The notes under the pieces are model-generated. The model was not told where the DNA came from. It ran no database searches and was given only the letters and a program-made list of their open reading frames with translations. A stretch of 17,289 nt of DNA from Methylobacteriaceae bacterium (GTDB lineage Bacteria > Pseudomonadota > Alphaproteobacteria > Rhizobiales > Beijerinckiaceae). A program made the position numbers and the translations under genes. The stretch spans positions 1 through 17,289 of the forward strand of contig JAISTL010000019.1 in assembly GCA_031272615.1 (NCBI GenBank), given 5' to 3'. Shown one piece after another: positions 1,151-17,289 of the stretch (position 1 is its first letter; each line of letters begins with the position of its first letter).

Positions 1151-1981
1151 ATGACGACCAGTGAAAATCCCGCCGCCGTGCCGGAGTGCCCGCCTCTCAG
1201 CGCCCTGGAGAGCGCCTCCGGCCAATTGTCTTATCGTGCCGCCGGAACGGGCAAAACCGTTCTGTTCCTGCACGGCAATCTGGGAAGTTCCCGTTCCTGG
1301 GCCTTCCAGCTTGCCGATTTCGCCGGCGATTACCGGGCCGTCGCCTGGGACGCGCCGGGCTACGGCGGGTCCGCGCCGCGCGCCGTGGATATCGACGCCT
1401 ATGTCGAGGCGCTGGGTGAACTCATCGCTTTTATCGGCGGCGCGCCCGTCCACATCGTCGGCCATTCCATGGGCGGCACCGTCGGCGCGCGCTATGCGGC
1501 GCTCCACCCGGAAAACGTCGATCATCTGGTGCTGTCGTGCTCCCATCCGGGTTACGCAGAGCCCGAAACCGCGCCAATGTCGGCCAAGTTCGAGAAACGC
1601 ATGGAGGAGCTGAAGGCCATCGGCAAGGAAGCCTACGGACTGGCCCGGGCCCGGGACCTGCTGCCGGGCGTCGATGAAACCAGCCCTGTCTTCCTCTATG
1701 CCGCGGAAGTCGCGGCGGAAACCGACCCCGACGGGTTGCGCCGCGCCTCGCGTATGTTGCAGCTTGCCGACAACCGCCCCTTGCTGCCCAAACTGAAAGG
1801 CCCGATTCTCGTGCTGACCGGCGAAATCGACAAGGTTGTCGCGCCCCGTCTCAAGGCCGACCAGCTCGCCCTCGTTCCGTTCACCCGGCATGTCGACATG
1901 CCCGGTTTGGCCCATGCCCCCTATTTCCAGGCGCCCCGATACTACAACAAACTCATCCGTGACTTCTTGTCCGGCACATAA
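1151..1981 (+). CDS. Alpha/beta-fold hydrolase (esterase or lactonase type)
   Basis: The 276-residue product is a typical compact alpha/beta hydrolase. HGNLGSS at 41-47 supplies the oxyanion-hole HG. GHSMGG at 104-109 is the nucleophile elbow with Ser106. GEID at 224-227 places the acid at Asp227, and GLAH at 252-255 gives His255. No signal peptide is visible, so it should be cytoplasmic. The overall pattern resembles the PcaD/MhpC-like group that cleaves C-C, ester or lactone bonds, but the substrate cannot be read from sequence. GGGGGAAA precedes the ATG. The transporter gene follows 18 bases after the stop, so the two are co-transcribed. A plausible role is hydrolysis of an ester or lactone related to the transported dicarboxylate (inference). 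Confidence 0.88.
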   Translation: MTTSENPAAVPECPPLSALESASGQLSYRAAGTGKTVLFLHGNLGSSRSWAFQLADFAGDYRAVAWDAPGYGGSAPRAVDIDAYVEALGELIAFIGGAPVHIVGHSMGGTVGARYAALHPENVDHLVLSCSHPGYAEPETAPMSAKFEKRMEELKAIGKEAYGLARARDLLPGVDETSPVFLYAAEVAAETDPDGLRRASRMLQLADNRPLLPKLKGPILVLTGEIDKVVAPRLKADQLALVPFTRHVDMPGLAHAPYFQAPRYYNKLIRDFLSGT

Positions 1982-1999
1982 CCACCGCGGGAGGAAAAT

Positions 2000-3370
2000 A
2001 TGTTAGGTTTTGCCATCGGCATTATCGTGACGGTAATCGCCGCCTATTTCATCATCAAGAATTATCAACCGCAGACGGTGTTGCTGCTGGCCGGCCTCGT
2101 GCTGCTGGCCCTCACCGCCGTGCTGTTCCCCGATACGCCGATTCTCTACGGAAAAACCAAGTCCATCGGCGCCACGGGCTTCGACATCTTCAACTTCGCC
2201 AAGGAATCGCTCACGGCGCAGGTTGCCGGTATCGGTCTCATCATCATGGCGGCCGGCGGTTTCGCCGATTACATGGACCACATCAAGGCGTCCAACTCCA
2301 TGGTGAACCTGTGCGTCAAGCCCCTGCAGCTCATCAAGGCGCCCTATGTCATTCTGGCGGCGGGTTATATCCTCGGCCAGATCCTGCACGTGGCCATTTC
2401 CAGCGCCGCCGGGTTGGCGATGCTGTTGTTGGTCACCTTCTTCCCGATTCTGGTCCGGCTCGGCGTCAGCAAGGCGGCCGCGGCGGCGATGATCGGCATG
2501 ACGGCGTTCATGGACCTCGGCCCGGCGGTGGGCACCGCCAATCTGGCGGCCAAGCACGCCGGCATTGAAACCGCTGTGTATTTTGTCGAAAACCAGCTGC
2601 CGGTAGCCGTCGGCGTCATGCTTGTGGTCGCGGTGCTGATTTATTTCACCGCCCAGCATTTCGACAAGGTGGACGGCCACGTCGTCGCCCAGACCGAAGC
2701 GGACGAGGCAACCAAGGCTGAAGAAAACTCCGCGCCGGGCTTCTATGCCCTGCTTCCGGTCATCCCCATCGCCATCGTGCTGGTTTTCAGTCCGCTGGTG
2801 ATTGACAGCATCAAGATGCACGTGGTCACCGCGATGATCATGGGCGCCCTCATCGGCCTGCTGTGCGAGCTTCTCGTCAAGCGTGACGTCAAGGGCGCGT
2901 TCAAGGGCTTCCAGGTGTTCTTCAGCGGCATGGGCAAAATGTTCACCAGCATCGTTTCGCTGCTTGTCTGCGCCGATGTGTTCGCGTCCGGCTTCCAGAT
3001 CATCGGCGCGGTGGATTTCATCGTCAACTCGGTGCAGAACGCCGGGTTGGGTGCCAACGTCATGACGGTGGTCATGACCCTGCTGGTCGGCGTCACCGCG
3101 GCCATCACTGGTTCCGGTGTGGCGGCGTTCTCGGTGTTCTCGCAGCTGGCGCCGAATATCGCGTCGTCGTTCGGAGCGAGTTCCATCTCGATGATCCTGC
3201 CGATGCAGTTGATGGCTGGCATGGGCCGCGCCATTTCCCCGGTGGCCGGCGTCATCATCGCCGTCAGCAAGTCCGGTGAATGCTCGTCGTTCCAGATTGT
3301 GCGGCGCACGCTCATCCCCGCCCTCGGCGGCATGGTCACCATGTTGATCCTGAACTTCCTGGTCAACTGA
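2000..3370 (+). CDS. DcuC-family C4-dicarboxylate transporter
   Basis: This 456-residue polytopic membrane protein has about a dozen hydrophobic segments, the first at residues 3-19, arranged as two halves around a charged cytoplasmic-type loop at about 220-247. It matches my memory of the DcuC pattern: the N-terminal IIKNYQPQTVLLLAGL stretch, FADYMDHI near residue 88, KPLQLIKAPYVIL at 107-119, AVSSA-like AISSAAGLAML at 132-142, and the C-terminal MGRAISPVAGVIIAVS at 408-423. DcuC carriers move succinate, fumarate and related C4-dicarboxylates across the inner membrane, often by exchange or efflux during anaerobic growth; import of another dicarboxylate is equally possible here. GGGAGG lies just upstream of the ATG. 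It is the second gene of the RpiR-controlled operon and is followed by a strong terminator. Confidence 0.9.
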   Translation: MLGFAIGIIVTVIAAYFIIKNYQPQTVLLLAGLVLLALTAVLFPDTPILYGKTKSIGATGFDIFNFAKESLTAQVAGIGLIIMAAGGFADYMDHIKASNSMVNLCVKPLQLIKAPYVILAAGYILGQILHVAISSAAGLAMLLLVTFFPILVRLGVSKAAAAAMIGMTAFMDLGPAVGTANLAAKHAGIETAVYFVENQLPVAVGVMLVVAVLIYFTAQHFDKVDGHVVAQTEADEATKAEENSAPGFYALLPVIPIAIVLVFSPLVIDSIKMHVVTAMIMGALIGLLCELLVKRDVKGAFKGFQVFFSGMGKMFTSIVSLLVCADVFASGFQIIGAVDFIVNSVQNAGLGANVMTVVMTLLVGVTAAITGSGVAAFSVFSQLAPNIASSFGASSISMILPMQLMAGMGRAISPVAGVIIAVSKSGECSSFQIVRRTLIPALGGMVTMLILNFLVN

Positions 3371-3442
3371 CCATTCGCGAATCGGAGGGGGCGCGGCCCG
3401 GGGCAGTTCCCTCGTGCCGAAGGCCGCACCCCTTCCGTCTTT

Positions 3443-3471
3443 GCGCCGCATTTTCAAGACGCGGCGCTTTT
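3443..3471 (+). terminator. Weaker terminator-like hairpin after the transporter gene
   Basis: GCGCCGC at 3443-3449 pairs with GCGGCGC at 3461-3467 over an 11-base loop, followed by only four T residues. It may slow or partly stop transcription before the stronger terminator 23 bases downstream. Confidence 0.4.
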
Positions 3472-3493
3472 CCCGACGTACTGTCAGGCTCAT

Positions 3494-3527
3494 GGAACGG
3501 CTTCGCAAGGAGCCGTTCCTTTTTTTT
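3494..3527 (+). terminator. Rho-independent terminator of the hydrolase-transporter operon
   Basis: GGAACGGCT at 3494-3502 pairs perfectly with AGCCGTTCC at 3511-3519, with an 8-base loop, and is followed by eight T residues at 3520-3527. It lies 123 bases after the transporter stop and isolates this operon from the SNF2 gene. The remainder of 3371-3652 holds no gene that I can support. A TATAAA at 3565-3570 could be a -10 element for the next operon, but no good -35 is seen. Confidence 0.92.
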
Positions 3528-3652
3528 AGAGGCCCGAGAGTGTTCCGCCGCCGTTTCGCAAGTGTATAAACCGGACGTGGGACTCCAGCTTCCGGCGATT
3601 CCGGTGTAAGAAAAAACCTGACGTGCCGCGGCCGGAACAAGGAACAACCACA

Positions 3653-6181
<2,529 letters not shown>

Positions 6182-6183
6182 CC

Positions 6184-6909
6184 ATGGGTTGGGGATGGGG
6201 ATACGAGTATTATGACAGGCCGAGCGTGGCCGAGCAGCGCAAAACGGCCGAAAAGCGCCGCAAGCAGCTGGAGAAAAAACTCGGCGAAATTCATCCGGTT
6301 CTCATCGAAGGTCGGAAAATCGCCAAAACCTGGTGGGGCATTGCCTGGAACAAAAACCTCGAAAGCTATGCCGATTTCGAGAATCGCCTGAGCCGCGGGC
6401 GCAGCTATTGCACCAACGGTTTCGTCCTCGATCTGGGCATCCGCGAAGGGGAAATCAAGGCAAAAGTCAGCGGCAGTTCAATCTACGATGTCAAAGTCAA
6501 AATCGACCGGCTGGATGACAAGAAATGGCAGAAGATCGTTACCGCCTGCGCCCAGCGGGTGGAGAACATCGGCTCCCTGGTCGAGGGCAAATTCCCGCAG
6601 GAACTGGCCGATGTGTTCATGAAACGCGGTGACGGCCTGTTTCCCGGGCCGCGGCAGATTCATATGTCGTGCAGCTGCCCCGACGGCGCGACACTGTGCA
6701 AGCACGTCGCCGCCACCCTTTATGGCGTCGGCAACCGTCTGGACAACGACCCTCTGCTGTTTTTCAAACTGCGGGGCATCGACCCGGATGAGCTTATCAG
6801 GAAATCCGTCGACGAGAAGATGAAGAACCTCCTTGTCAACGCCGGCAAAAAAACCAAACGCGTAATCCCTGACAAAGACGTCGCGCGGATATTCGGGGTT
6901 GAGCTGTAG
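6184..6909 (+). CDS. SWIM zinc-finger protein, partner of the SNF2 helicase
   Basis: This 241-residue protein carries a SWIM zinc finger, CxC-x6-CxH, with Cys163, Cys165, Cys172 and His174 in SCSCPDGATLCKH. The N-terminus is aromatic and glycine-rich (MGWGWGYEYYDRP), followed by a lysine/arginine-rich helix at 15-35. A WWGIAWNKNLESY segment at 50-62 is typical, as I recall, of bacterial SWIM proteins encoded beside SNF2 helicases. SWIM fingers bind DNA or protein; the plausible role is to direct or load the upstream helicase (inference). The start lies 2 bases after the helicase stop, and GGAGG (6170-6174) within the preceding gene can serve as the ribosome site. It converges with the NAD-kinase-like gene across 36 bases that contain no evident terminator. 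Confidence 0.9.
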   Translation: MGWGWGYEYYDRPSVAEQRKTAEKRRKQLEKKLGEIHPVLIEGRKIAKTWWGIAWNKNLESYADFENRLSRGRSYCTNGFVLDLGIREGEIKAKVSGSSIYDVKVKIDRLDDKKWQKIVTACAQRVENIGSLVEGKFPQELADVFMKRGDGLFPGPRQIHMSCSCPDGATLCKHVAATLYGVGNRLDNDPLLFFKLRGIDPDELIRKSVDEKMKNLLVNAGKKTKRVIPDKDVARIFGVEL

Positions 6910-10436: not shown

Positions 10437-12725
10437 ATGAACACAGGTGAGGACAATTCAAAACTTCAAATCAGAGTTTCGCGTGATCAGCGGAATGCGG
10501 AGTCGGCAGCATTCGCGGCGCAGCGCGAGCTTGATTCGTTCCATGGGGGCCCACCTCCGGTTAACACACTGCACGGATTGACCGAGCACGACCGCAAACG
10601 CATCGACATGAACAACCGCCGGCGAGCATCGCTTCAAGCCATTGCTGACGAATCGTTTCATGCGATGGCTGAGGTCTATGCTGAAGTCCGCGGGTCGGAC
10701 GAACCCAAGTTGCAGCTATGGTATGCCAATTCCTCCGCTTCCACCAATGAACCGCTCAAGGTGGTGGATGGTGCCATAAACGTCCTTTCTTGGACGCATC
10801 CGGGCGTTCAACTCGCTTTGGCATTGGACGTCGGTGGTTTCGAGGACATCAAAGCCAACGGGTACAGCTTACGCAGTATAGAAGTAGTCGCCAAGGCCCG
10901 CTTTGACGCAGTCTTACCGCAGATTTCCGCCGTTTACCAACCCGGCGGCGCAGTGCGGACAAAGTCTTCACCTCCCATCAAAACCGGCCTGAAGGCAGTC
11001 AAACTCCACATGACCCCCGATCAAGCGCACGCCTTCATCTCGCGGATGTCGGGTCTGATGATCGTCACCGGTGCACCGGGTTCAGGGAAAACCACGGTCG
11101 CATTTCAGCGTATACGTTTCTTGTTCGATCAGCAGGATCAGCGCGATCCAGGTGAGCGTTTGGTCCCATATACACCACAGCTCACCCGTATCTTCCTTGC
11201 CAACAATAATCTCGCTGTCCAAGCGAAAAGCCTTCTCAAGAATCAACTGGACATTCCGGACTTCATCGTTGAGTCCGTCGGAAGCTTTGTTGATGCATAC
11301 TTGGAGCATGTTTGGCTTTATAAGCACAACGCGCGACCCCGTCAGAAAAAGCTCTCTTCGCTCGAAGCAGCGGCACGGACCGCGATTCTTGGTTTGTCGG
11401 ACAATTACGATCTTGTTCGTTTTTGGGAGGTTTTTGAGCATCAGATCTCCGGGCGGCTCAGCGAGGCATCATCTGCCGACTGGCTAAGCATTAGTAAGAC
11501 AGACAGGACCATCGCTGCCCGATTGTCGACTCTTGCCGAAGCCCTCTCGCGTGCTGGAGATGCGGCCGTTGGCAGGGATCCCCTGATCTCAAAATTCACC
11601 ATGAATGCCGTCTATTCAGAGGTATTACGACCTTATGACGCAGCCCGTCAGACCATGGCCCCAAATGTCCGGGACACGTTTGATGAACAATTTCAACAGT
11701 GGCTCTTCTGGGTTTATGACCCTCTCTCAGCGGTTGCCACCTATTTTGGCGCACGAGAGACCGAGGCGGCGCAGCGGATGCGGTTGGGCACCGGCTCACG
11801 CGTTGATGAACCGGAAATCCTCCGAAACGCCATTGCCGAATGGGGCGTTCGGGGTTACGGACCCGAGGACCGCCCGTGGCTTGCTTGGTTGCTTCGATTT
11901 GCCTTGCCTGAGGAGACGGATGCTCAGGCCCGCTTCCGCGGAATCCCTTCAGCAATCTCTCCGGCTATGTCAAGCGGAGAGCGCTGGACACATATCGTCA
12001 TTGATGAGGCGCAGGATCTTTGCGCCGCCGAAGCTTCTCTGCTCGGGTCCCTCGTTGATCCCGACGGCGCGTTGACCGTGTCAGCTGACTTTCATCAAAT
12101 CGTCAGCCCCGTGCACGGCATACGTGACATTAAGGCACTGAATGTTGGCCGTTCTCTGCGTGGAAAAAAGGCAGAACAAATCTATCCGTTTGCCCGCAAT
12201 ATGCGCCAAAGCCAGCAAATCGGCCGCTTTCTCCAAGGGTTTTACGAGGCGGCCTTCGGCGAGCGTCCTACCTTTGGTGTCAATGAAGGCCTTCAGGACA
12301 CCAAGCCTCAGCTCTATATCGCTCCACCGCATGAACATGCCCGAAGAATCAAGCAAATCGCGGCGGCGCTTCGCCGATCGGAAGTGGTGAATAATCTCGC
12401 TGTTCTGCAGATCAACGAGAATGAACAAGCCCTCGCTAAGCTTCGGAGCGAGTTGCAGGCGCTTGGAGTACCGTTGGCCGCTATCTGGGCGGCTGCGGGC
12501 GAAGGCGTTATCACCACCTCGGTCGAACGAATCAAAGGATTGGAATTTGATGCCTGTATCGTTCTTGGTTTGGAGGAGGTAGAGATGGCGGCGCTGAATT
12601 TCACGCTCAATCGCGCCTATGTTGCTCTTTCGCGTCCTGCCCGTCGGCTCGCACTTATCTGCAGCGAATACCCAACGCTCCTGCGGAACGTTCGCGACAA
12701 GACTTTATTTGATGTATTCGCGTAG
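10437..12725 (+). CDS. Superfamily 1 (UvrD/HelD-like) helicase, first gene of the BREX-like operon
   Basis: From the ATG at 10437, preceded by GAGGGAG, the product is 762 residues. The frame is open back to a TTG at 10269, but no better start lies between. SF1 motifs are clear: motif I GAPGSGKTT at 212-220, motif II HIVIDEAQDL at 519-528, motif III SADFHQIVSP at 549-558, motif V ITTSVERIKGLEFD at 692-705, and motif VI YVALSRPARR at 728-737. The N-terminal about 190 residues contain a charged helix and a VVDGAINVLSWTHPGVQL-type stretch loosely reminiscent of HelD-like proteins; the insertion between motifs I and II is long. It should be an ATP-driven single-strand translocase. The next gene starts 41 bases downstream. 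Codon usage and GC are lower than in the genes to the left. Participation in defence is inferred from the neighbours. Confidence 0.85.
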   Translation: MNTGEDNSKLQIRVSRDQRNAESAAFAAQRELDSFHGGPPPVNTLHGLTEHDRKRIDMNNRRRASLQAIADESFHAMAEVYAEVRGSDEPKLQLWYANSSASTNEPLKVVDGAINVLSWTHPGVQLALALDVGGFEDIKANGYSLRSIEVVAKARFDAVLPQISAVYQPGGAVRTKSSPPIKTGLKAVKLHMTPDQAHAFISRMSGLMIVTGAPGSGKTTVAFQRIRFLFDQQDQRDPGERLVPYTPQLTRIFLANNNLAVQAKSLLKNQLDIPDFIVESVGSFVDAYLEHVWLYKHNARPRQKKLSSLEAAARTAILGLSDNYDLVRFWEVFEHQISGRLSEASSADWLSISKTDRTIAARLSTLAEALSRAGDAAVGRDPLISKFTMNAVYSEVLRPYDAARQTMAPNVRDTFDEQFQQWLFWVYDPLSAVATYFGARETEAAQRMRLGTGSRVDEPEILRNAIAEWGVRGYGPEDRPWLAWLLRFALPEETDAQARFRGIPSAISPAMSSGERWTHIVIDEAQDLCAAEASLLGSLVDPDGALTVSADFHQIVSPVHGIRDIKALNVGRSLRGKKAEQIYPFARNMRQSQQIGRFLQGFYEAAFGERPTFGVNEGLQDTKPQLYIAPPHEHARRIKQIAAALRRSEVVNNLAVLQINENEQALAKLRSELQALGVPLAAIWAAAGEGVITTSVERIKGLEFDACIVLGLEEVEMAALNFTLNRAYVALSRPARRLALICSEYPTLLRNVRDKTLFDVFA

Positions 12726-12766
12726 TCCAGTTACAGCTTTGGTCTTCTCTCCGAAAGAAACTCAGA

Positions 12767-13660
12767 ATGTCCGAAACTTCCAAAACTCCTCCTCTTTTCC
12801 CGGCGCTTGAACGGTTTATTGGCCGCACAGGGCTTTTATCCAACCCAAAAGGCATCCTCGCGGCACGGCTACCCCGCATTCTCGGCCAAGGCCAAACTCG
12901 AGCTGAAGGCTTGGACATGCCGCCCGCGACCATTGAGCGACAGCAACAATTACTTGCGCTTACCCTTCCGGAAGAAGCGGTGCATGACAAGGATGTCCAA
13001 GCCGAGATCGCGGCTGCTCGTGATGCAGTTCATGCACACACCGAGCAAATGCGCAACCCTGATACGCGTCGTCGTTTCGCTTTGCAGGTCCTTGATCGCT
13101 TGGATGATGTCCCACATGGGATCAAGGATAACCACTTTTTCGCTGGTCGCCTTGTGCTCGGCCCAGACAGAAACGGGCAGAACTGGGCTTGGAAGATGAC
13201 ACCCCACTATCCGGTGATCAAAAAGATCCCTGCAGACATTGACTATGTCGTGGCCGCATACGCCGCATCCGAAGAGATCGTCAAGCGGTGGTCTCTTCCG
13301 GTCGACCGCTTCCTCGATCGCCTCACCTTGGCTTGGTCTATCGCTCGGCATTTTAGCGAAGGCGAAAACGTATTCATCGCCGACGTGGCACGTGTGTTCA
13401 AGATTGCCGCTCAAGAGGAGCGTTTCTGGATTAGTCCGTGTCGCCGTAACTTCAACGATATTCCCGATGCAGTCTTCATCGCCAATTTGATTAATTGGCG
13501 GCGCCACCGAGATACAGAAAAATCCGGTGAAAATTTCGAGCTGGTGCCCGCGACGCTGAATCAGGCGCATGGTCCTAACTCTCGCGCTTACTACGTCCCC
13601 TCCAACGCTGAAGGAACAACCGTTCGCCCGATGATTTACATTCGTCGGCAACCAAGCTGA
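12767..13660 (+). CDS. Unrecognised 297-residue protein in the BREX-like operon
   Basis: I do not recognise a family. The N-terminal 100 residues are mostly helical and charged (PATIERQQQLLALTLPEEA at 53-71, then EIAAARDAVHAHTEQMRNP at 80-98). A middle region has the pattern LVLGPDRNGQNWAWKM at 129-144. A helical part around 160-215 contains SLPVDRFLDRLTLAWSIARHF, and a C-terminal part has CRRNFNDIPDAVF and HGPNSRAYYVP. No transmembrane segment, signal peptide, TerB-like motif, nuclease signature or P-loop is seen. The single ATG start has only a weak ribosome site (GAAAGAAA), suggesting translation coupled to the upstream helicase. The stop is 14 bases before the next ATG. The position between a helicase and ATPases suggests an adaptor or DNA/RNA-binding subunit (inference only). 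Confidence 0.75.
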   Translation: MSETSKTPPLFPALERFIGRTGLLSNPKGILAARLPRILGQGQTRAEGLDMPPATIERQQQLLALTLPEEAVHDKDVQAEIAAARDAVHAHTEQMRNPDTRRRFALQVLDRLDDVPHGIKDNHFFAGRLVLGPDRNGQNWAWKMTPHYPVIKKIPADIDYVVAAYAASEEIVKRWSLPVDRFLDRLTLAWSIARHFSEGENVFIADVARVFKIAAQEERFWISPCRRNFNDIPDAVFIANLINWRRHRDTEKSGENFELVPATLNQAHGPNSRAYYVPSNAEGTTVRPMIYIRRQPS

Positions 13661-13674
13661 AAGAGAAGGAACAT

Positions 13675-14958
13675 ATGGATATTGCCATTAACAAAGGCGA
13701 CGCGCGTCGCCTCGTCACAATCTTGATGAATGCGCCGATCGCTCCAGGAAAATACTCTCATTTCATCAATGCCGGAACAGACGGTATTCTTGATGTGCTC
13801 GACCACAACTACTTTCGCGGCGAGTTGGCGGAGGGTATTGGTTGCTTTAAGTATTTGGAAGGAGATTACGGAAGCGGAAAGACTCAGTTCATCAACAGTC
13901 TAGCTCAGCGCGCCAATGAGCAGAAGGTGGTGACTGCCCTTGTCACGGTGGGCAATGAGTGCCCGTTTAACTCTCCAGCCGCCATCTTCTCTGCAATAAT
14001 GGAATCCTTCAGTCCGCCAACCGATACGCAAGGCGAGTCGAAGGGCATCGAGGTACTGATCGACAGCTGGATTAAACACCGAATTCGTGAGCTTGGAGAT
14101 GAGCCCGGGGAGGATGTCCCCGAGATTATTCAGCGTCAGATTGAACACCAGATAGCAGGGCTGTGGAAAGGTGCGCCGGACCAACAGATGGCGTCGGCTC
14201 TTGTGGCGTTGAGCCAACGCCTGCTGAAGACCAACTGCGGCGCGTCGGATACTGTTGCCGACAGCGAATTGATTTCGTGGATTCGAGGTGACAATGTCCG
14301 TTCCACAGCGCTCAGGAATCTCGGCCTGTTTGAGCCTGTGCGCGATGATAACGCGTTCCGCCGACTCAAGACGGTTATCGCTTTCCTACGCAACCGCATG
14401 GGTTACAAGGGATTTTTGATAGCCTTCGACGAGGGAACTCGTACATCGTCTTTCCGCCGGGGATCGGCCAAACAAAAGCAAGCAATAGAAAATCTGCTGA
14501 CCATGATTAATCAGAATGCCGAAGGTGAATTCGGCGGCGTAATGTTCATCTACGCTGCTACGCCCGACTTCCGCTCCGAAGTGATCACCAACTATCGTGC
14601 TCTGCAGGATCGGATTGGGACTAAGGCCTTCTCCAAGGGCAGTCCGATGGTGCCTTTGATTAACATCGAAGAGGCGAACTCTGAAGATGTCATCCGCAGC
14701 ATTGGCGAGAATCTGCTTGTCGTGTTCGCCAAAGCCTACGATGTTGATTGGGATATGACCGTGCAGACGGCCAACATGAAAGCCATCATCGCAGCTCAAA
14801 AGGAAGTTCTGTACGAGACGCCCAAACCGAGATTCTTTGTCTATCAGTACTGCCGTTTCCTTGAAGCTCAACGCATGGAGCAAAAGGCTATCAGCGCCGG
14901 GCAGGCGGGTGACTTCGTAGGAGACAACGAACCGCCGCAGGAAGGGGGCGTCGGATGA
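13675..14958 (+). CDS. BrxD-like (BREX ATP-binding, DUF2791-type) P-loop ATPase, first copy
   Basis: The 427-residue product opens with an N-terminal helix and a region typical of BrxD (GELAEGIGCFKYLEGDYGSGK at about 49-69), with Walker A GDYGSGKT at 63-70. The Walker B is FLIAFDEG at 247-254, and VMFIYAATPDFR at 289-300 fits a sensor strand. BrxD-type ATPases accompany Lhr-like helicases in BREX types 2 and 6, and similar ATPases occur, as I recall, in Shango-type systems. The C-terminus beyond 400 is low-complexity and acidic. GAGAAGGA precedes the ATG. Its stop overlaps the next start (ATGA), indicating coupled translation and probable joint assembly with the following ATPase. The family call is from motif order and context and is not database-checked. 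Confidence 0.8.
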   Translation: MDIAINKGDARRLVTILMNAPIAPGKYSHFINAGTDGILDVLDHNYFRGELAEGIGCFKYLEGDYGSGKTQFINSLAQRANEQKVVTALVTVGNECPFNSPAAIFSAIMESFSPPTDTQGESKGIEVLIDSWIKHRIRELGDEPGEDVPEIIQRQIEHQIAGLWKGAPDQQMASALVALSQRLLKTNCGASDTVADSELISWIRGDNVRSTALRNLGLFEPVRDDNAFRRLKTVIAFLRNRMGYKGFLIAFDEGTRTSSFRRGSAKQKQAIENLLTMINQNAEGEFGGVMFIYAATPDFRSEVITNYRALQDRIGTKAFSKGSPMVPLINIEEANSEDVIRSIGENLLVVFAKAYDVDWDMTVQTANMKAIIAAQKEVLYETPKPRFFVYQYCRFLEAQRMEQKAISAGQAGDFVGDNEPPQEGGVG

Positions 14959-16427
14959 TTGCCTCTGGTGAAAATGTTGAGCACGCTGAGTATGGGATCG
15001 GAAAAGTGCTCGCCATCTTTGGAGACGTCGCTACGGTCGAATTCTCTGGTGAGCAATTCGATATCTCAATTGATGAACTCACTACCCGAACAGCCCCGAA
15101 TGGCGTGGCGCCGGTGGCTCAACCGGATGCGCCGGTAACCGACCCGGAATTCCGTCGCGCTTTCGAAGCGATGAACCTCGGCGTGGTACCGTCCGACCCA
15201 AAGATGTTGACCAAGTTTACCATCGGCGGCGACGAGATCTCAGAGGATATTCGTAGCGTGTTGGCGGACGCATCGTTCAAGGGGGCCTATCGGGTCTTCA
15301 TGGGCTACTATGGTTCGGGCAAATCACACCATCTGCAGATGGTGAAGGCTGTTGCATTGCGGGAGGGGTGGGTCACTGCTACCCTCGAATTAGATCCAAA
15401 GGCGGCCGATCCGGCCAAGCCGGCTACAGTCTATCGGGAACTACTCACCAACCTCGCATTTCCCGAACGGGCCGATGGCTCGAAAAATGATGATTTCTTC
15501 GATTTGGTTAAGGAAATGCGCTACAAATGGCCTGAGATCAGAGGTCTGCCGTACTTTCGGCGCTCGCCATGGTTCAGTAAGGGACTTTCAGCACTACTCT
15601 ATTTGACGCACCGCCGAGATGTTCCGAATTACGTCGCCGCCGTTAGCTGGCTGGCGGGGCAAGTGAAACAGATCGGCGCGATCCGTTCAGTAGCTTGGCG
15701 CTCCGGAAATCGGGATGCGATCCCATCCATGCCGCAAACCAAAGACACCGGCCTGATCTATGCCAATCATCTGGTCGTGCTAAACGAGGTTGTAAAGAAG
15801 CTTGGCTACCGCGGTCTTGCCATCATCATTGACGAGGCCGAGCATGTTCGAAGCTATTCCGTGAACATGTATCTCAGGGCCAACAATTTCCTGGATATCC
15901 TTGCCCGCTGTGCTCATCCCCCTCGCGAGGATTTGCAGGACCCGACATGCGATTACGAAGTCCCGACATTCTCTCCCTTCTGGCGTGAAGGTCCGCACTT
16001 TGCTATGTTCGTCGGCCTCACCGAAGGCGAAGATACACAGGATCTTTTTCGCAAGCGCGGCGAGATGAGCGTTTTGATTCATTCGCCCAGCGACGTGGTC
16101 GAAATCAAGCCACCAAGCCCCGCTGACTACAAGATTTGGGCGGCAGCTTTTCTTGACGAGGCCGCTCACCGTCTCGGCGCAAAGGTCGCGGCGCTTTCCG
16201 ATCCGGAACTGCGTGAACGAGTCGCGGCGATTCTGCGCGAACACTTCGAGAATGCGTCGAATTCCGAGAGGATACTGCGAAACTGGATCAAGCTTGCAGG
16301 CTTCCCACCCGCGATATTGATGGCTCAGCTCAAGCCCCTCGGCGTGGAGGAGATTGTCGATTATGTGGAAAAAGCCGCAAGTCAAGTGGCCGGCGGGATC
16401 TTGCCTTGGGAAGAATCGCTCATATGA
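14955..16427 (+). CDS. BrxD-like P-loop ATPase with N-terminal Tudor/PcrA-C-like module, second copy
   Basis: The 490-residue product has an extra N-terminal module at about 1-45 (VEHAEYGIGKVLAIFGD at 8-24, then VATVEFSGEQFDISIDEL), which resembles the small beta-barrel at the end of PcrA/UvrD and the DUF3553 family (pattern VxHxxYGxGxV then VxFxG). After a linker (46-80) comes the BrxD-type ATPase: VFMGYYGSGKSHHLQM at 114-129 with Walker A GYYGSGKS, and GLAIIIDEAEHV at 287-298 as Walker B. HFAMFVGLTEG at 348-358 matches the sensor region. The start overlaps the upstream stop by 4 bases, and AGGAAGGGGG precedes it. The stop overlaps the helicase start by 4 bases. Together with the helicase it forms the BrxD-BrxHI-like pair. 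The Tudor-like call is from pattern only. Confidence 0.82.
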   Translation: MIASGENVEHAEYGIGKVLAIFGDVATVEFSGEQFDISIDELTTRTAPNGVAPVAQPDAPVTDPEFRRAFEAMNLGVVPSDPKMLTKFTIGGDEISEDIRSVLADASFKGAYRVFMGYYGSGKSHHLQMVKAVALREGWVTATLELDPKAADPAKPATVYRELLTNLAFPERADGSKNDDFFDLVKEMRYKWPEIRGLPYFRRSPWFSKGLSALLYLTHRRDVPNYVAAVSWLAGQVKQIGAIRSVAWRSGNRDAIPSMPQTKDTGLIYANHLVVLNEVVKKLGYRGLAIIIDEAEHVRSYSVNMYLRANNFLDILARCAHPPREDLQDPTCDYEVPTFSPFWREGPHFAMFVGLTEGEDTQDLFRKRGEMSVLIHSPSDVVEIKPPSPADYKIWAAAFLDEAAHRLGAKVAALSDPELRERVAAILREHFENASNSERILRNWIKLAGFPPAILMAQLKPLGVEEIVDYVEKAASQVAGGILPWEESLI

Positions 16428-17289
16428 CCAAGACCCGAGCTGATTTCGTTCAGATGATGCCGGACGCCTTCCCGCTGTTTTTTAGCGGCCGGCAACCTTG
16501 GCGTGGGCAGGCGCTGGTCATGCCAGAGGTAGTAAAGGGAGGCGATATCCTGTTCGCTGCCCCGACGGCATCGGGCAAGACAGAGGCTGTCGTTGCCCCA
16601 CTCTATCAACGCCATATTTCGTTCAAACGAGGTAGGCTTTCGACCGTGTATGTCGCTCCTACCAAAGCGTTGGTGAACGATCTCTATGAGCGGTTGATCG
16701 GCTATCTTGGAACCCGTCAGGCTGATACTATTGTTCGCTATACCGGCGATCGGCACGAGCTACGCATTACTGAAGGTGTGTTCTGCTTATTGACGACACC
16801 GGAGGCGCTCGACTCGCTGCAACTGCGCCAGCCACAGGCGCTCACTGGGGTTCGGGCGGTCATTGTTGACGAGATCCACCTTTTGCATGGTCAGCCGCGG
16901 GGTCAGCAGTTGCGTCATGTTATTTCACGTCTTCGGCAAGCGTCTACGCCACCGCTCGTGCAACGCGACCGCTTTCAGGTGGTGGGCATGACGGCGACTC
17001 TTGACGACATGGAAGGCGTGGCAAAGACTTGGTTGGGTGAGAACGCAAAGGTGTTTTCTCATGGTAACCCGCGTGAGATTGAACTGGAACTGATCGAAGA
17101 CGACGTGGATGAAGAGGACAGTCATGGCAAAGCCCGCGCTTTGGCGCGTTGGCTCGAAGAGTCCAGATCACAGAAGGTACTGGTGTTTGAGAACTCCCGC
17201 AACGGTGCTCACGAACTTGCAGCTTGTCTTCATAGGGAACTCAAGGGTACGCACTGGCCTGTCCATTTGCATTTTGGGGCGTTGGCAGC
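16424..17289 (+). CDS. Lhr/BrxHI-like SF2 DEAD/DEAH-box helicase, C-terminus beyond the window
   Basis: Translation from the ATG at 16424 gives 288 full codons before the window ends. Motifs of the Lhr-type SF2 helicase are plain: motif I APTASGKTE at 46-54, motif Ia VAPTKALVNDL at 77-87, LTTPEALD at 123-130, motif II VDEIHLLHG at 148-156, motif III MTATL at 189-193, and KVLVFENSRNGAHELA at 251-266 opening the second RecA lobe. Full Lhr or BrxHI proteins are considerably longer, so only the first domain and a little of the second are present. The ATGA overlap with the upstream ATPase gene makes these two a co-translated unit, as seen for brxD-brxHI. The helicase presumably works on foreign or replicating DNA (known family context plus inference). 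Confidence 0.9.
   Translation, partial: MTKTRADFVQMMPDAFPLFFSGRQPWRGQALVMPEVVKGGDILFAAPTASGKTEAVVAPLYQRHISFKRGRLSTVYVAPTKALVNDLYERLIGYLGTRQADTIVRYTGDRHELRITEGVFCLLTTPEALDSLQLRQPQALTGVRAVIVDEIHLLHGQPRGQQLRHVISRLRQASTPPLVQRDRFQVVGMTATLDDMEGVAKTWLGENAKVFSHGNPREIELELIEDDVDEEDSHGKARALARWLEESRSQKVLVFENSRNGAHELAACLHRELKGTHWPVHLHFGALA

Follow-up and report, generated by a model that had tools for sequence, protein, structure and literature searches.

A conserved four-gene core of a signature protein, two BrxC/BrxD-type ATPases and an SF2 helicase: a probable undescribed defence-type system in a Methylobacteriaceae genome

The window analyzed here, a 17,289-base stretch of DNA from a Methylobacteriaceae bacterium, is the whole of contig JAISTL010000019.1 (C25 of genome G000 in our numbering, in which L marks loci) of a 2.6-Mb metagenome-assembled genome (MAG) with 344 contigs and 78% completeness. 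Five genes on the same strand, P1 to P5, occupy its right half, and the contig end falls within P5 (Table 1). The open reading frame (ORF) calls gave gaps of 41 bases between P1 and P2 and 14 bases between P2 and P3, and overlaps of 4 bases at both P3/P4 and P4/P5, as an earlier note on this DNA had reported. The lower G+C content that the note had seen in the operon half was also found, windowed values being 0.52-0.57 to the right of about 9.5 kb vs 0.56-0.64 to the left of it. When the MAG was searched with a related helicase, no continuation of P5 was found elsewhere; the only matches were C25 itself and one gene on contig C51, which reads as a DEAD-box RNA helicase.

Table 1. Genes of the operon in the window and the domain located within P4
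Feature	Position	Strand	Evidence
P1, SF1 helicase, HelD/UvrD-like	10437..12725	+	Pfam, NCBIfam, PDB, motif alignment
P2, signature protein of an unnamed family, about 280-300 aa	12767..13660	+	13-row alignment, family profile
P3, first BrxC/BrxD-type ATPase	13675..14958	+	Pfam PF10923, 13-row alignment, tree
P4, second BrxC/BrxD-type ATPase with putative N-terminal PcrA/UvrD-type Tudor-like domain	14955..16427	+	Pfam PF10923, alignment, tree
Putative Tudor-like N-terminal domain of P4	14955..15110	+	Pfam match below cut-off, PDB hits
P5, SF2 helicase (Lhr/Ski2/BrxHI-like), N-terminal 288 aa	16424..17289	+	Pfam DEAD, relatives, PDB, tree

P1 is 762 amino acids (aa) long from the ATG at 10437, which is likely to be its start, the ORF itself opening upstream at a TTG (10269). 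It matched the Pfam family UvrD-helicase above the cut-off, and its P-loop and DEAQD motifs were invariant in 13/13 aligned rows. Its best NCBIfam matches are HelD/HelR motors, superfamily 1 (SF1) helicases that recycle RNA polymerase, and so are its only PDB relatives with E ≤ 1e-3, two sequences that carry the names HelD and DNA helicase IV (the latter presumably B. subtilis HelD). However, the best score, for HelD, was 40.4 bits against a cut-off of 419, below the HelD equivalog level, and both PDB matches were limited to the P-loop region. The AlphaFold2 model of P1, with a mean predicted local distance difference test (pLDDT) score of 47, was too poor for use.

P3 (427 aa) and P4 (490 aa) both matched Pfam PF10923 (BrxC_BrxD), with 149.6 and 71.9 bits, respectively. 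With the NCBIfam BrxD model, whose cut-off is 350 bits, P3 scored 86.8 bits and P4 55.5 bits, both below the equivalog level; the PADLOC model of SngB gave 97 bits for P3. The Walker A and Walker B motifs are GDYGSGKT and FDE in P3, and GYYGSGKS and IIIDE in P4. Over 13 rows these nucleoside triphosphatase (NTPase) motif columns were invariant, except that the D of GDYGSGKT in P3 was nearly invariant. The N-terminus of P4 was also analyzed. The Pfam family PcrA_UvrD_tudor matched all 12 of the P4 N-termini supplied (best E 0.0013), with 16.4 bits in the window, under the Pfam cut-off of 23.9, and the best five of six PDB hits were UvrD/PcrA or DNA-helicase chains (best E 0.0029). The Tudor domains of PcrA and UvrD bind RNA polymerase. 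A joint origin of P1 and this Tudor-like domain was considered and dropped, since N-termini that look similar by eye are found in loci L088, L091, L092, L093, and L096, which have no P1.

The part of P5 in the window matched Pfam DEAD. Relatives of P5 are about 670-700 aa long and, when full length, carry both DEAD and Helicase_C; the longest P5 ORF was 677-699 aa in ten of them, and the NTPase motifs lay in invariant columns of these ten rows. The best PDB hits were 5v9x and 7lhl, both named ATP-dependent DNA helicase, which we take to be Lhr. Among the PADLOC models, a full-length P5 was nearest to BrxHI and SngC, and the SngC model gave 109 bits for the cut P5 of the window.

P2 (297 aa) had no Pfam, PADLOC, or NCBIfam match at the scan thresholds. 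A laxer Pfam scan of 13 P2 proteins produced just a weak and implausible oxidoreductase match in 6/13, and TerB was not matched in the Pfam scans. All proteins of the set except P2 have NTPase motifs. These data are in line with most of what had been noted from the letters alone: SF1 motifs at the front of the operon and superfamily 2 (SF2) motifs at its back, a 297-aa protein of no named family, and two tandem BrxD-like ATPases, each with a P-loop and a Walker B motif.

The conservation of the operon was investigated in other genomes. P1 to P5 were found in order on one strand in all 12 other loci reached from close P3 or P4 matches: the 11/11 that P3 brought out of the GTDB species collection, and the locus of genome G093, found with P4. 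The GTDB scan relied on two 7-residue patterns, and its 11 loci are a lower bound. The note had named lack of conservation of this gene order across genomes as one result that would remove its claim of novelty, and the order held throughout. Because the same five genes share order and strand in all these loci, each of which keeps the 4-base overlap of P3 and P4, the operon is not a chance arrangement. The 12 hosts are Alphaproteobacteria, Acidobacteriota, and Gemmatimonadota; those from GTDB are Falsiroseomonas, Pseudorhodobacter, Albimonas, a Bryobacterales MAG, Bradyrhizobium, two Rhodospirillales, a Gemmatimonadota MAG, Mesorhizobium, Amaricoccus, and Novosphingobium. P3 of the window was 76% identical to that of the Bryobacterales (Acidobacteriota) locus and 70% identical to that of the Gemmatimonadota locus, as would be expected from recent transfer. 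The presence of the operon was patchy. A three-row profile of the second ATPase matched 9/385 genomes of the class at E ≤ 1e-6: the genome of the window, G093 with the whole operon, and seven others at 35-49 bits, three of which (G313, G344, and G124, one locus each) had a single BrxD-type ATPase and no P2 match. In the phylum sample 12/398 genomes matched at E ≤ 1e-8, and only the genome of the window and G736, which is probably the same genome as that of L038, did so strongly. A strong match was thus present in 1/384 other class genomes and 1/397 other genomes of the phylum sample.

The conserved unit is a four-gene core, P2-P3-P4-P5, and not the five genes. An Aulosira laxa plasmid carries core genes of 279, 420, 398, and 697 aa, and a Desulfomonile plasmid carries the same four. 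In an Acidobacteriota draw of 396 genomes, 122 matched a helicase profile at E ≤ 1e-45; most of these matches, proteins of 1300-1600 aa, were taken to be Lhr. The 17 strongest were opened, in addition to G797, which holds five-gene operon L034. A P2-family gene, two ATPases, and the helicase were found in G982, G809, G813, G825, G855, G864, G1039, and G868, so that at least 9/396 genomes, G797 included, have the whole set. The P2-family gene was shortened and the first ATPase degraded in G1079; G843, G815, and G856 had the helicase without the ATPases; G1037, G1049, G980, and G1172 had one such ATPase and the helicase; and G1129 was BREX-like (bacteriophage exclusion), with PglZ and one such ATPase. 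In a Gemmatimonadota draw 20/64 genomes matched the helicase profile. Among the matches opened, the core was carried by G1209 and, with a helicase of 1889-1931 aa, by G1236, G1235, G1229, and G1222; G1224 and G1252 resembled the latter form, but were cut by contig ends. The core was defined as a P2-family protein, a first and a second BrxD-type ATPase, and a P5-type helicase in this order, and was found in the 13 five-gene loci (the window included; P5 is broken in two loci and cut in the window) and in L084, L086, L088, and L090-L094 of the Acidobacteriota draw, and L096 and the fused L097 and L099-L101 of the Gemmatimonadota draw. P1 was not found in any of the 18 core-type loci checked. It is therefore an addition to the core, and of the five-gene unit proposed earlier the order stood in 12/12 loci while the extent did not.

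The fused Gemmatimonadota variant, of 1889-1944 aa, was seen at L097 (8618-14365), L099, L100, L101, L102, and L103. It consists of a P5 homologue, a segment in which nuclease-like conserved residues and clustered cysteines were recognized by eye, and then an SF1B helicase, which matched AAA_11/AAA_12 in L097, the locus scanned; the six loci align. No nuclease profile was among the matches listed for the middle segment. The TM0106-type RecB-like nuclease/SF1 helicase, Mokosh MkoA, and DpdJ have a similar SF1B helicase, but this part is not among the five genes of the window.

In the loci opened the core begins with P2, whose family was followed with a profile built from six Acidobacteriota and Gemmatimonadota proteins at the P2 position. 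The profile recovered 13/13 P2 proteins with 33-47 bits (E 2e-7 to 1e-11, for a nominal database of 100,000), and scored 41 bits for Aulosira, 32 for Desulfomonile, 37 for L084, 68 for L097, and 83-87 for L086 and L090. Among 994 locus ORFs of at least 200 aa its only further matches were the P2-position genes of L089 and L099-L101, and none of five annotated TerB-type proteins was matched. A direct comparison of P2 with the Aulosira protein had been weak (hhalign E 0.004, probability 8%); the link was accepted because the family profile found intermediates. By these profile matches P2 is one family across the operon variants. No match to P2 was found in the plasmid collection.

We analyzed both ATPases and the helicase by trees. 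Fourteen loci (six five-gene loci, L086, L088, L090-L094, and L096), out of 20 overall, gave one clade for their first-position ATPases (97/89) and another for their second-position ATPases (98/96), with the SngB rows in a clade of their own apart from P3 and P4. In the helicase tree 18 core and two solo helicases split from six BrxHI and six SngC rows at 100/99, and the SngC rows again formed a separate clade; nine rows were flagged for unusual composition, and an earlier 18-row tree agreed with the split, with a long-branch warning. The SngB and SngC labels follow annotated TerB neighbours in L005, L007, L011, and L013, and gene order in L029 and L030. The BrxD and BrxHI labels follow annotated BREX genes in Pseudanabaena, neighbours in Aulosira, and an adjoining PglZ in L098, but those of L104, L105, and L107 (3/6 BrxHI rows) rest on gene order and size only. 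P5 lies outside the branch of BrxHI and SngC. P5-type helicases with no ATPase partner in the stretch were also seen at L085 (4106-6136), L087 (8853-10886), and L095 (4221-5993), three loci that share neighbouring genes.

The genomic context was examined by flank scans, in which, of 125 flank ORFs called, ten chosen proteins were compared with PHROGs and eight with PADLOC. In L031, L033, and L039 the genes before the operon are of phage type (tail, tail-fibre, endolysin/peptidase, or primase-type), and an IMG/VR viral contig equal in size to the L033 contig carries the same genes. P3 matched nothing in the phage collection at a threshold of E 1e-5, and scans of viral contigs with the Aulosira-type proteins found no relative. 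At L041 a TM0106-type RecB-like nuclease/SF1 helicase (14956-18354; 240 bits, cut-off 97) follows P5 after 215 bases on the same strand. At L032 a SIR2-domain protein (1619-3682; Pfam SIR2_2 and PADLOC Argonaute-associated models) lies upstream of the operon, at a distance of about 3 kb and on the opposite strand. In the window itself, positions 3623-6909 encode a SNF2/DUF3670 helicase and, after it, a protein of 241 aa that matched no Pfam family and has a CxC...CxH (SWIM-like) motif.

The set was compared with known systems. No complete PADLOC-DB 2023 system and no NCBIfam system covered it in the scans made, as expected from the note, in which the combination fitted no canonical set; nor was it described in the literature found by a search that reached few subscription papers. 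PbeABCD, considered as a four-gene set like P2-P5, was rejected because its gene content differs from P1-P5: it comprises a phospholipase D (PLD)-SF2 helicase, a small protein, a CxC ABC ATPase, and a DndE-like protein (PMC6459918, PMC10853773). The gene contents of the BREX-related systems of PMC12839542 and of ARMADA (PMC12458937), as far as the accessible text of each gives them, also differ.

We consider it probable that these five genes are one form of a mobile system of the defence type that has not been described, with the core P2-P3-P4-P5. In the best reading of this defence-type (or mobile-element) system, the ORC/Cdc6-like ATPases would act as a pair and, together with P2, load an Lhr/Ski2-like helicase. 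The genes are homologous, are inherited together in fixed order, keep intact NTPase motifs, are distributed widely and patchily, and at some loci have prophage, plasmid, or BREX links. The P2 family, the conserved operon, and its separateness from BREX and Shango are results of this analysis.

Several points weigh against this reading, in which the defence role and the mechanism are inferred. A profile of the 13 P2 proteins only reached just L088 and L093 (36-37 bits) and L091 (21 bits); L092, L096, and L094 were insignificant and the plasmid proteins were missed, so that the plasmid link depends on the intermediates. The AlphaFold2 model of P2 (mean pLDDT 55) gave no usable fold, and a Foldseek search with this poor model found nothing at E ≤ 0.001. 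The Aulosira-type and fused variants had no settled place in the ATPase tree and fell outside both clades, "first" required three changes and "second" two over the 20 loci, and the tree tool warned of long branches meeting; because of these placements and this warning a single origin of all variants is not proven. P5 was full length in 10/12 loci and broken in two: its longest ORF in L037 was 119 aa, and in G093 (L026, 10995-11483) it is interrupted behind the DEIH motif and continues as an apparent tail of an ATP-dependent DNA ligase, through either a deletion junction or an assembly error. Mobile or defence surroundings were seen at a few loci only within the flank scans, and an all-against-all comparison of the 125 flank ORFs gave ABC-type and phage-type groups and a few two-locus groups, with no clear shared accessory gene. 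Nuclease domains were not matched in the five-gene-form proteins scanned, save the helicase-type ResIII and Cas3-like_C_2, and the effector may therefore be missing or absent.

A module for DNA repair or replication restart, or for prophage or plasmid maintenance, in which loader ATPases and helicases serve the DNA of the element itself and not defence, is unlikely. Such a role would suit the prophage-side and plasmid locations, the presence of helicases without a nuclease in the five-gene form, and the ORC/Cdc6-like character given to the BrxD class in PMC12839542. However, the patchy presence described above argues against it, the closest relatives of the motor proteins, BrxD/BrxHI and SngB/SngC, belong to defence systems, and BREX-type genes lie beside the Aulosira and L041 loci.

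It is also very unlikely that the operon is a Shango variant, with SngA replaced by P2 and SngB duplicated, that works as Shango does. Shango (SngA, TerB-like; SngB, ATPase; SngC, helicase), for which anti-phage activity was demonstrated (PMC10250203), is likewise a short operon with a BrxD-like ATPase adjoining a BrxHI-like helicase, and the common ATPase-helicase logic and the SngB and SngC scores of P3 and P5 speak for a relationship. However, the present operon has no TerB protein, two ATPases of separate clades, the P2 family, and an added SF1 helicase. Pfam gave no TerB match in P2, the P2-family profile matched none of the five annotated TerB-type proteins, and the separate clades of SngB and SngC, the latter without P5, count against membership, though not against a Shango-like way of working.

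Less likely again is a detached piece of a BREX locus (type 2/6-like) whose ATPases and helicase are BREX accessories, as suggested by the shared dyad of a BrxC/BrxD-type ATPase and an SF2 helicase, by the PglZ (231 bits) that the MAG of the window carries on another, unlinked 4.2-kb contig (C136; L058 2738-3271 and neighbours) next to an ORF read as BrxL-like, by BrxA, BrxB, and BrxC upstream of the L041 operon on the other strand (the only such genes among the flank proteins scanned), and by the genes preceding the Aulosira core, for an alkaline-phosphatase-domain protein taken for PglZ, a BrxD-type ATPase, and a helicase. This explanation is weakened because PglZ had no match in 9/12 other genomes with the five-gene operon; the Desulfomonile plasmid, inspected over its full length, carries the core but, apart from the two ATPases, nothing annotated as BREX, the NCBIfam BrxD scores of P3 and P4 (87 and 56 bits) fall short of 350, and P5 is not within the BrxHI clade. 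PglZ, BrxC, and BrxX/PglX were not found among the five genes by Pfam, PADLOC, or NCBIfam, and the set includes no methyltransferase. The lack of PglZ, PglX, and TerB in the operon, noted earlier, was thus borne out for the five genes; with two ATPases and with P5 outside BrxHI/SngC, the operon is not a BREX or Shango variant by the genes that define those systems.

For the undescribed system proposed here, the following mechanism is suggested. In PMC12839542 the BrxD class is described as ORC/Cdc6-like and is suggested to load or activate BrxHI. That two paralogous ATPases are kept in order suggests that P3 and P4, as ORC/Cdc6-like AAA+ proteins, may assemble together into a mixed ring or clamp. 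P2 would be the natural adaptor or sensor, since it alone lacks NTPase motifs and comes first in the core, and it may tie the P3/P4 ring to DNA or to a signal of the invader. The ring would then load and gate the Lhr/Ski2-type P5 onto invader DNA, and the loaded P5 would block or unwind replicating or transcribed DNA. A second motor, of the SF1 class, may have been added in some lineages: the HelD/UvrD-like P1 in the form of the window, in Gemmatimonadota an SF1B helicase that is fused together with a RecB-like nuclease segment, and the neighbouring TM0106-type nuclease-helicase in Novosphingobium. By analogy to the Tudor domains of PcrA and UvrD, the putative Tudor-like domain of P4 may serve to bind a partner helicase or RNA polymerase. 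We propose more tentatively, as a possibility held with less confidence than the membership above, a separate, P2-defined anti-invader class, in which two dedicated, non-interchangeable ORC/Cdc6-like ATPases would load an Lhr-type helicase against mobile DNA, with a swappable SF1 motor and with the Tudor-like domain of P4 coupling the machine to transcription. If true, this would be analogous to helicase loading at replication origins, turned to defence.

How the ATPase-helicase pairs BrxD-BrxHI and SngB-SngC act in defence remains unsettled, and the wider family described here is a natural comparison set for them, in which the constant P2, two ATPases, and helicase would represent the machine and the variable P1 or fused nuclease its output. 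The helicase-loader idea put forward for BrxD in PMC12839542 is thereby made directly testable. The P2 family can be used as a handle to find such loci. The motor pair is of a known type, although P2 and the plan with two ATPases would warrant naming the system separately.

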